A stretch of 64,000 nucleotides of DNA from Gemmatimonadota bacterium (GTDB taxonomy: Bacteria; Gemmatimonadota; Gemmatimonadetes; Gemmatimonadales; Gemmatimonadaceae). Shown here in pieces: positions 19,778-54,318 of this stretch. The position numbers and the translations under genes are program-made. The first letter of the stretch is position 1; each line of letters opens with the position of its first letter. The stretch covers positions 1-64,000 of the forward strand of contig JANYHJ010000074.1 of the NCBI GenBank assembly GCA_025359135.1, read 5' to 3'. The notes beneath the pieces are model-generated. The model was not told where the DNA came from and made no database searches. It saw only the letters and a program-made list of their open reading frames with translations.

Positions 19778-19795
19778 GCTCCCCCGGACGCACGA

Positions 19796-19826
19796 CGGGC
19801 CGGTACGCCCTCGGCGCACCGGCCCG
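19796..19826. terminator. Hairpin between comFB and comEC
   Basis: Nine-base perfect arms cgggccggt (19796-19804) and accggcccg (19818-19826) with a 13-base loop, in the 73-base gap between the two genes. No T-run follows on the minus strand. It may attenuate or stabilise the transcript. Confidence 0.5.
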
Positions 19827-19850
19827 CTTCATTCGGGACGCGCTTCGGGG

Positions 19851-25211: not shown

Positions 25212-25618
25212 CAGTGTTGCGAAGGGAGCGACGACGGCGTGAACGGCGACGGCAACAGGTCGGAGAGGATCCAGTGCGCCTCCCGGCCCGACGTGGCACG
25301 ACTGACCACCGACATCCCCGGCGAAAACTCCGCCAAGGCCTGCCGGCACATGCCACACGGTGGGGTTGGTTCGATCGCGTCCGTCACGATCACCACCGCC
25401 CTGAACTCGCGCTGGCCGCGCGCGACCGCGGCCGCCAGCGCCGCCCGTTCGGCACAGACACCGCACGGGTAACTCGCGGACTCGACATTACACCCCGCGA
25501 CGACCGAGAGGTCCTCGCAGAGCAACGCGGCCCCGACCTTGAATCCCGAGTACGGCGCGTAGGCCTGCGTCATGGCGGCCCGAGCCTCGGCCCGGACGCG
25601 GTCCAGTGGATCCGTCAT
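25211..25618 (-). CDS. cdd: Cytidine deaminase
   Basis: It converts cytidine or deoxycytidine to uridine forms in nucleoside salvage. The 135-residue protein has the zinc motifs CAERAALAAA and PCGMCRQALAEF, plus the N-terminal YAPYSGFKVGAALL. The ATG at 25618 overlaps the deoB stop (ATGA). With deoB it forms a nucleoside-salvage pair. Confidence 0.95.
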   Translation of the reverse strand: MTDPLDRVRAEARAAMTQAYAPYSGFKVGAALLCEDLSVVAGCNVESASYPCGVCAERAALAAAVARGQREFRAVVIVTDAIEPTPPCGMCRQALAEFSPGMSVVSRATSGREAHWILSDLLPSPFTPSSLPSQH

Positions 25619-28750: not shown

Positions 28751-29440
28751 TCAATGCTGGATCGCGAAGCTGAACGGCTGTTGCACGAGCTGACGCACGC
28801 GACGGCCGCCCGCCTCGGCGGGCACGAAGCGCGCGAGTGGGATGACGCGTTCGATGGCCTGCGTGAAGAGCGCATGCGAGCTGCGCAGCACGCGCAGCGA
28901 GCCCACCTCGACCCGTCCCGTGGTGTCGACGACGAACTGCGCGAGCACCTCGCCCTCGACGCCGGCACTGCGCAGCAGCTCCGGATAGCGCGGCCGCGGA
29001 GTGTCGCCGAGCGCGATGACGGGCTTTTCCACGGTGTGTTCGCTCCAGATGCCGTTACCGGGCGTGCCGCTGGTCGTGGTGCTGGACAAGTTTCCGGCGG
29101 GCGTCCACGGCTCGGTCGAGGGCATCGCTACGGTCGTGACAGAACCGATGTCGGGAAGCGTGCTCGGGACCTCGACCGAAATTACCGGCACCGAGGGTGA
29201 TGTGACGGTCGTGGTGCTGGTGGACGTGTGCGCTGGCGCCGCGATCGTCGTCGGCGGATGGGTCGGCGGTTCCGCCGTGAAGATGACGGACGGCGGGCGC
29301 ACCGGCGCGACGTGCGCATCGGCCGTCGCCGTGGCGGCCACCGTCGCGGCAATCACGCCGGCGTGGACGACGACGCTGAGCGCGGCCCCGCCGCGGTCGC
29401 GCGACGCGGGGCGGCGGGTCTCGAGCAGGGTACGCAGCAT
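28751..29440 (-). CDS. TonB-like energy transducer
   Basis: A 229-residue protein with an N-terminal membrane segment (about residues 20-40), a Pro/Thr-rich periplasmic linker and a C-terminal TonB domain with PRYPELLRSAGVEGEVLAQFVVD. TonB proteins couple proton motive force to outer-membrane transport. No ExbB/ExbD or receptor is linked. The GGAGGG before the ATG is one arm of an inverted repeat (see that entry). MBL-fold gene precedes it. Confidence 0.85.
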   Translation of the reverse strand: MLRTLLETRRPASRDRGGAALSVVVHAGVIAATVAATATADAHVAPVRPPSVIFTAEPPTHPPTTIAAPAHTSTSTTTVTSPSVPVISVEVPSTLPDIGSVTTVAMPSTEPWTPAGNLSSTTTSGTPGNGIWSEHTVEKPVIALGDTPRPRYPELLRSAGVEGEVLAQFVVDTTGRVEVGSLRVLRSSHALFTQAIERVIPLARFVPAEAGGRRVRQLVQQPFSFAIQH

Positions 29441-29441
29441 G

Positions 29442-29504
29442 AACCCTCCGGCAGGTGACAGGCGGGCGGGATTGCCCGCTGCCTATCAGTACCGCCGGAG
29501 GGTT
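29442..29504. promoter_or_regulatory. Inverted repeat that can mask the tonB ribosome-binding site
   Basis: The arms aaccctccggc (29442-29452) and gccggagggtt (29494-29504) are exact reverse complements, with three further pairs after a bulge and a 34-base loop. In tonB mRNA the proximal arm contains the GGAGGG just ahead of the ATG, so folding would hide it. It may instead be a protein operator. Confidence 0.55.
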
Positions 29505-29571
29505 ACGCGCCCCTTTGGGGCAGATTGCGATTTGATGACGAGCGTGTTGCCGCTTGATGAAGCGGCGTTCG

Positions 29572-30495
29572 CTACTTCTTCGCGCCGCCGAGCTCCCCGT
29601 ATGCGAGCTTGAGGATGTCGTCGGCCTTCACGAAGCCGTTGGCGCCGAACTTCGCCTCGTAGTCCGCCAGCGGCTTGCCGGCGAGGAAGGCGTCGAGTGG
29701 CTGCTTCTTGCGGAGTGCGGCCTGCGTGCGGTCGCGGATGTTCTTGAGCATCGTCAGCACGCCCTCGACGTCCGCGCGGCTGGCGAGGTCACCGTGGCCG
29801 GGAATGAACTTGGTGCTGGCGTCGGTCACCGCGAGCATCCGCTCGATGCCGCTGATCATGCCGAGCAGCGAGCCGCCGCTCTCCGTGTCGATGAAGGGGA
29901 AGCCGTAGCGCACGAACACGTCGCCCGCGTGCACCACGTTGGCCTTGGCGAACTTCACGATTGCGTCGCCGTCGGTGTGCGCCTTGGGGATGTGGTGCGC
30001 CTCGAGCGTCTCGCCGTTCAGGTGCAGCTCCATCTCGGTCGGGAACGTGACGACCGGCAGCGCCGTCTTCGGGCTCGCGGGCGATGTGCGGTTGAAGCGC
30101 GCCGAGAACGCCTCCTTCGACATGCGCTCGCGCACGTTGTTCTGCGCGACGATGATGACGCCACTCTTGCCGAGGTTCTCGTTGCCGCCCGTGTGGTCGC
30201 CGTGCAGGTGCGTGTTGATGAGGAACTTGACCGGCAACGGCGAGAGTGCCTTGACGGCCGCGAGGATCTTGGCCGTGAGCGGCGCGAACTGGTCATCGAT
30301 GAGCACGACGCCATCGTCACCAACGGAGACGCCGATGTTGCCGCCCTGCCCCATCAGCATGTAGATGCCGTCCGACACCTTGATGGTGCGGATCGTGACA
30401 GTGTCCATGCCGCCCTGGGCGGCAAGGTGCGACGGGAGCGCGGCGCCGGCAACGGCAAGCGCGACGGCAGCGGCGCGAACGAATCGTGGGGTCAT
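29572..30495 (-). CDS. Secreted metallo-beta-lactamase-fold hydrolase
   Basis: A 307-residue protein with a signal peptide (first 27 residues, cut after LAAQ) and the metal-binding motif HLHGDHTGG near residue 97, then HTDGDAIV, HAGDVFV and a later HGDL. It belongs to the MBL-fold superfamily; the substrate is unknown. GGAG stands about 7 bases before the ATG. It lies after the P1 peptidase and before tonB on the same strand. Confidence 0.82.
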   Translation of the reverse strand: MTPRFVRAAAVALAVAGAALPSHLAAQGGMDTVTIRTIKVSDGIYMLMGQGGNIGVSVGDDGVVLIDDQFAPLTAKILAAVKALSPLPVKFLINTHLHGDHTGGNENLGKSGVIIVAQNNVRERMSKEAFSARFNRTSPASPKTALPVVTFPTEMELHLNGETLEAHHIPKAHTDGDAIVKFAKANVVHAGDVFVRYGFPFIDTESGGSLLGMISGIERMLAVTDASTKFIPGHGDLASRADVEGVLTMLKNIRDRTQAALRKKQPLDAFLAGKPLADYEAKFGANGFVKADDILKLAYGELGGAKK

Positions 30496-54240: not shown

Positions 54241-54262
54241 CAGCGGGCGGTTGGCGATGCGA

Positions 54263-54297
54263 GAGGGGCGCCCTGGCCGTGTGCCGGGGCGCCCCTC
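54263..54297. terminator. Bidirectional terminator-like hairpin
   Basis: Ten-base perfect arms gaggggcgcc (54263-54272) and ggcgcccctc (54288-54297) between convergent DUF748 and DUF4397 genes. The loop is 15 bases. No T-run, but position supports a shared terminator. Confidence 0.65.
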
Positions 54298-54318
54298 GCT
54301 GTTCAGGTGCTGCGACGG

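Follow-up and report, generated by a model that had tools for sequence, protein, structure and literature searches.

The tonB locus and its leader

The window, the whole stretch of 64,000 nucleotides analysed here, carries on its minus strand a gene for a metallo-beta-lactamase-fold hydrolase (MBL) followed by a tonB gene (Table 1). The product of the former matches Pfam Lactamase_B with 59.4 bits and its frame stops at 29572; the product of the latter matches TonB_C with 45.9 bits (cutoff 24.6) and begins, in the list of open reading frames, at an ATG at 29440-29438. Because a second full-length tonB match with 41% identity is present in the same genome (G000:C26), we consider the copy in the window to be an accessory paralogue. 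The two genes are separated by 131 bases, the last ~63 of which form one hairpin in the mRNA sense, in a genomic setting of 74-78% G+C.

Table 1. Genes and leader elements at the tonB locus, in window coordinates. G002 is a related genome, and L011 is its corresponding locus.
Feature	Position	Strand	Basis or remark
MBL, metallo-beta-lactamase-fold hydrolase, upstream of tonB on the same strand	29572..30495	minus	open reading frame; Pfam
H0, 7-bp hairpin directly after the MBL stop	29549..29566	minus	fold; region not conserved in G002
Leader segment between H0 and H1	29523..29538	minus	identical to G002 at 13 of 16 positions (read from the alignment)
H1, small hairpin upstream of H2, 6 bp, 3-nt loop	29508..29522	minus	fold; kept in L011
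H2, main hairpin	29442..29504	minus	fold; inverted repeat; compensatory changes in L011
H2 outer stem, 11 bp, perfect	29494-29504/29442-29452	minus	
H2 bulge, then 3 pairs	29453; 29491-29493/29454-29456	minus	fold
H2 inner stem, 7 bp + 5 bp	29481-29487/29457-29463 + 29475-29479/29466-29470	minus	A/CC loop between the two parts
Shine-Dalgarno GGAGGG, entirely within the 3' arm of H2	29444..29449	minus	sequence; unpaired probability 0.0001
tonB, accessory paralogue, 229 aa, start MLRTLLETRR	28751..29440	minus	open reading frame; Pfam TonB_C

Elsewhere in the family, many tonB genes whose products start with MFNNLLE (L010, L012 and L018-L045) share, as judged by eye, a block like TTCATCGTTTCTTAATC...ATTCCG at ~70-100 nt before the start. 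From its sequence, this block upstream of the canonical tonB may represent a promoter or a site resembling a Pho box. The tonB of the window does not have it.

A stable hairpin predicted to enclose the Shine-Dalgarno sequence

The arms of the H2 outer stem constitute the sole inverted repeat between 29400 and 29600 that is 8 nt or longer, with 11 nt at 100% complementarity, and the remaining 34 nt (29457-29490) fold into a further stem. The original prediction had described this hairpin correctly in its coordinates and in its parts, namely the 11-nt repeat, the bulge, the three additional pairs, the inner stem within 34 nt and the placement of GGAGGG in a stem. In the minus-strand sense H2 has a predicted energy of -47.8 kcal/mol (z -8.1), a stability equalled by none of 200 dinucleotide shuffles. 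The Shine-Dalgarno sequence (SD) is base-paired in the modelled mRNA leader, its probability of being unpaired rising from 0.0001 at 37 C to 0.0013 at 70 C, and the predicted cost of opening it at 37 C is 21.4 kcal/mol.

H2 is the most stable of the 15,984 segments of 64 nt taken at a step of 8 from the two strands of the 64 kb, and it is the fourth locus by stability among 97,868 such segments in 392,671 bases of its own genome, so that its stability is rare but not unique. We compared the leaders of 183 genes in this 392-kb sample, these being the genes with an SD-like word among crude calls made from ORF length, third-position G+C and SD, with no annotation check, and tonB ranks first both for inaccessibility of the SD and for stability of the leader (the next being -40.9). 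What sets this hairpin apart in the sample is its position at a start site, not its stability. None of 49 other tonB leaders of the family is as stable, the strongest reaching -37.6; this set consists of 29 of the 30 loci L010, L012 and L018-L045 (L040 was omitted, its start being unplaceable) and 20 further paralogues, and some of its start codons are uncertain, that of L105 being plainly misplaced.

Other very stable, GC-rich hairpins without a U tract lie between genes in the window (19778-19850, 25467-25614 and 54241-54318), and further ones are found at L099:17415-17528, L083:7958-8111 and L095:3549-3635, mostly between tandem or convergent genes. These may represent transcript ends of the organism.

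Conservation and compensatory changes in a related genome

Three genomes in the collection represent the genus: that of the window (G000), G001 and G002, the last being a groundwater Gemmatimonadetes MAG (contig JACQES010000414.1). MBL is 75% identical to the window copy in G002 and 62% identical in G001. Locus L011 of G002 shares its synteny with the window: MBL precedes a tonB that has the N-terminus and the leader of the window copy. The leaders agree in 72 of 92 columns and differ in 20, which exceeds the agreement at fourfold sites both in MBL (83/137, 61%) and in the 5' part of tonB (23/45, 51%). The conservation is found in the tonB-proximal half of the intergenic region, whereas the MBL-proximal half is not conserved in G002 and has hairpins of its own. 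The leader segment between H0 and H1 is mostly unpaired in the window fold and partly paired in the G002 fold; it is a possible linker or, more speculatively, a ribosome standby site.

The H2 of G002 folds with -39.3 kcal/mol (z -5.1), and 62 of the 64 pair cells are retained in a model derived from the two sequences. In three pairs both partners are replaced: one pair in H1 and one in the outer stem go from C-G to U-A, and one in the inner stem goes from A-U to G-C. Another three pairs are retained through G-U, and two are broken in G002, a G-G opposite the SD and an A-C. Compensatory changes were the check that the original prediction had named, and they are present here as three two-sided changes in one relative that keeps tonB, that is in two sequences, which suggests that the pairing has been kept by selection. 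The central claim of that prediction, occlusion of the tonB SD by the hairpin, is supported by the folds in both genomes, by the first rank among 183 genes and by the pairing conserved in G002.

The agreement depends on the register of the pairs: when the partners are slid by 1-3 columns, at most 49% remain paired (vs 97%) and at most one compensated pair is found. When the 11 paired-column substitutions are placed at random, at least three compensated pairs arise in 0.3-1.2% of placements, the range reflecting the transition rate assumed, and the shuffle control is weak with only two rows, 56 of 500 shuffles reaching the observed values. On the opposite strand 4 of 64 pair cells are lost, against 2 on the mRNA strand, which is a weak preference for the latter; among the one-sided changes, three are paired, as G-U, only on the mRNA strand and one only on the other. 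Within H2, changed bases make up 5 of 11 unpaired and 8 of 52 paired positions (Fisher p 0.04, with small numbers). The SD is less deeply buried in G002 than in the window, with a predicted opening cost of 12.9 kcal/mol and a modelled unpaired probability of 0.17 at 37 C and 0.21 at 70 C.

After ~115 residues, near the contig end, the tonB frame of G002 loses its likeness to that of the window (L011:1831-1998), and a Pfam search gave no match. The break is possibly a misassembly or a rearrangement.

Distribution of the hairpin

In G001 MBL is present and is followed only by fragments of tonB, and the hairpin is absent. One fragment (L064, G001:C6:122983-123480) is a 43-residue C-terminal piece at 67%, the N-terminal part and the leader being gone.

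We searched 179 genomes of the family, 288 of the order and 395 of the phylum, which are overlapping sets, with a covariance model of the two sequences, and only G000 and G002 matched at E<=0.001 per genome; in scans of more than 40 genomes stricter filters apply and only part of the first-look candidates are scored, so that weak copies may escape. Across 84,980 species genomes, one locus was recovered, again the G002 contig. Weaker covariance matches outside the genus, with 22-28 bits and E values per genome of 0.005-0.08, occur in G064, G085, G138 and G003. All four were treated as chance, the outer stem being missing or many of its pairs broken; open reading frames were inspected at L057 and L058, where the matches lie inside long frames. 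Short DNA matches in other genomes of the family have E values of 0.0007 and above. The hairpin was also considered as a repeat (REP) or mobile palindrome and rejected as such, with a single significant copy in its genome both by DNA (next E 0.74) and by the covariance model (one match at E<=0.1). On sequence comparison, then, the hairpin is probably lineage-specific; it is known from two sequences, and the certainty is limited thereby.

Proposed role of the hairpin and alternative explanations

Probably, a selected and lineage-specific cis-acting RNA hairpin occludes the SD of the accessory tonB. Our favoured reading, which we hold with roughly even confidence, is that this leader hairpin acts as a constitutive brake or insulator and not as a sensor. 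On RNA that starts upstream of 29505, whether from an own upstream promoter or by read-through from MBL, translation of tonB would be held very low, and it is because translation would be held low on any RNA with the 5' arm that we describe the hairpin as a brake or insulator. Useful expression of tonB would then come from RNA without the 5' arm, made by an internal start or by nuclease processing, or through a factor that opens the stem. In silico, the RNA starts that were tested from -53 inward leave the SD 15-23% unpaired, compared with 0-2% for longer RNA. A search of 29300-29800 gave no sigma-70-like promoter, although promoters of this phylum may differ, and a shortened tonB transcript is hypothetical for that reason. 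Conceivable openers of the stem are proteins, antisense RNAs and RNases. A stronger version, a so far undescribed control of translation within one Gemmatimonadota genus, seems to us rather unlikely; in it the SD-occluding hairpin is near-irreversible and silences the accessory tonB as long as it is neither opened nor bypassed, be it by a trans-acting RNA, by a nuclease or by a ribosome that loads onto the conserved segment 29523-29538.

The absence of the hairpin from G001, where only tonB fragments remain, counts in favour of the brake. Against it we count the presence of only two carriers, the G-G opposite the SD and the cheaper opening in G002, as well as the strong U-tract-less hairpins in other intergenic regions of the genome, which fit a role at transcript ends.

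This last point leads to the main rival, that H2 is a transcript-end hairpin of MBL, a U-tract-less terminator or 3'-end stabiliser, whose 3' arm overlaps the tonB SD by chance because the intergenic region is compact; we regard this as a serious though doubtful possibility. MBL does lie upstream on the same strand, and a best 64-nt MFE of <=-36 is reached in this genome by 12 of the 61 tandem and 4 of the 13 convergent intergenic regions but by none of the 11 divergent ones (by the same crude gene calls, with no annotation check); several of these GC-rich hairpins without a U tract start 10-18 nt past a stop. H2, however, starts 67 nt past the end of the MBL frame, and its other end lies 1 nt from the tonB start codon region scanned; by this position it belongs to tonB. 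The restriction of the conserved block to the tonB-proximal half, away from the MBL-proximal half with its own hairpins, and the survival of MBL in G001 without H2 argue in the same direction. A terminator-like site, with a stem and a T run, was found here on neither strand; the two such sites detected are both on the plus strand inside MBL, and the tails of the hairpins have no T run. The two roles, ending a transcript and hiding the SD, could coexist.

We think it unlikely that H2 is a neutral or DNA-level feature with no role in tonB translation, such as an operator palindrome, a mobile palindrome or a product of chance. Hairpins of similar stability do occur within coding regions at 74-78% G+C. 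Against this, H2 has a single genomic copy and is therefore not a repeat family, its conservation exceeds that of fourfold sites and includes compensatory changes, and its one-sided changes pair more often on the mRNA strand.

The original prediction went further than occlusion, and proposed that the SD could be switched by a ligand, a protein or temperature. A riboswitch or protein-responsive leader, with a stem that opens or closes in response to a ligand or protein, would have a plausible target in tonB, a gene that might well be under nutrient control, and the asymmetric internal loops (the 3-nt bulge and the A/CC loop) and several constant positions of the two-sequence alignment (A40, A50, AU58-59 and CC65-66) would suit it. 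But the window has no Rfam match at gathering score, and at E<=10 only three matches at chance level, all off the hairpin; the loop bases change more than the stem bases, the opposite of what is expected for an aptamer; no alternative fold with a free SD was seen within ~21 kcal/mol; and the evidence comes from two species and one gene only. We consider such a leader very unlikely. An RNA thermometer would likewise have its SD in a stem, but with the SD >99% paired at 70 C in the window, and with so small a change between 37 and 70 C in G002, it is exceedingly improbable; both a thermometer and a switch between alternative folds were rejected, as in silico the stem does not melt and no cheaper fold was seen. 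Switching of the hairpin is thus not supported, and it is this absence of evidence for a switch, in opening cost, heat stability, Rfam matches and loop variation, that leads us to favour the constitutive brake.

Comparison with known systems

Hiding the SD in a hairpin is a known mechanism, and this instance of it is new to us. In the open-licence literature we found no description of this element or of one like it in Gemmatimonads. Intrinsic terminators without a U tract are a known class, and the leader resembles them in having a long GC stem between tandem genes; it is unlike them in that it abuts the next start codon and not the previous stop, and in that it contains the SD. The fold-back inhibition of transposase genes is a comparable brake, although the phrase itself is absent among the open-licence papers listed.

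Translational riboswitches and RNA thermometers also occlude the SD in a stem. The tonB hairpin shares this arrangement with them, and differs in having no Rfam match and no aptamer-like conserved loops and in being too stable to melt. The FourU element of chuA is an example of an SD-occluding thermometer (PMC9002310).

In the tisB mRNA of E. coli the ribosome-binding site is closed in a stable structure and the processed transcript is described as the active form (PMC7708055). The tonB leader is like tisB in this closure; tisB, as far as that account goes, is a type I toxin gene whose mRNA contains a pseudoknot and has a proven standby site, whereas processing and standby are mere possibilities for tonB.

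The ISPpu9 transposase of Pseudomonas putida has a 5'-UTR structure that buries the ribosome-binding site, the weakening of which raised a reporter 26-fold, and an antisense RNA has been proposed to open the leader fold (PMC8450116). From what that source describes, the two leaders are alike in a stable fold that buries the ribosome-binding site, with low translation shown for ISPpu9 and proposed for tonB; they differ in that ISPpu9 is a gene of a mobile element with known small RNAs, while here the gene is a chromosomal tonB paralogue, the opener is hypothetical and no relation in sequence was seen. TonB partner proteins power the uptake of scarce nutrients, and if our reading is true, a TonB paralogue would be restrained post-transcriptionally in a phylum with little described regulatory RNA.
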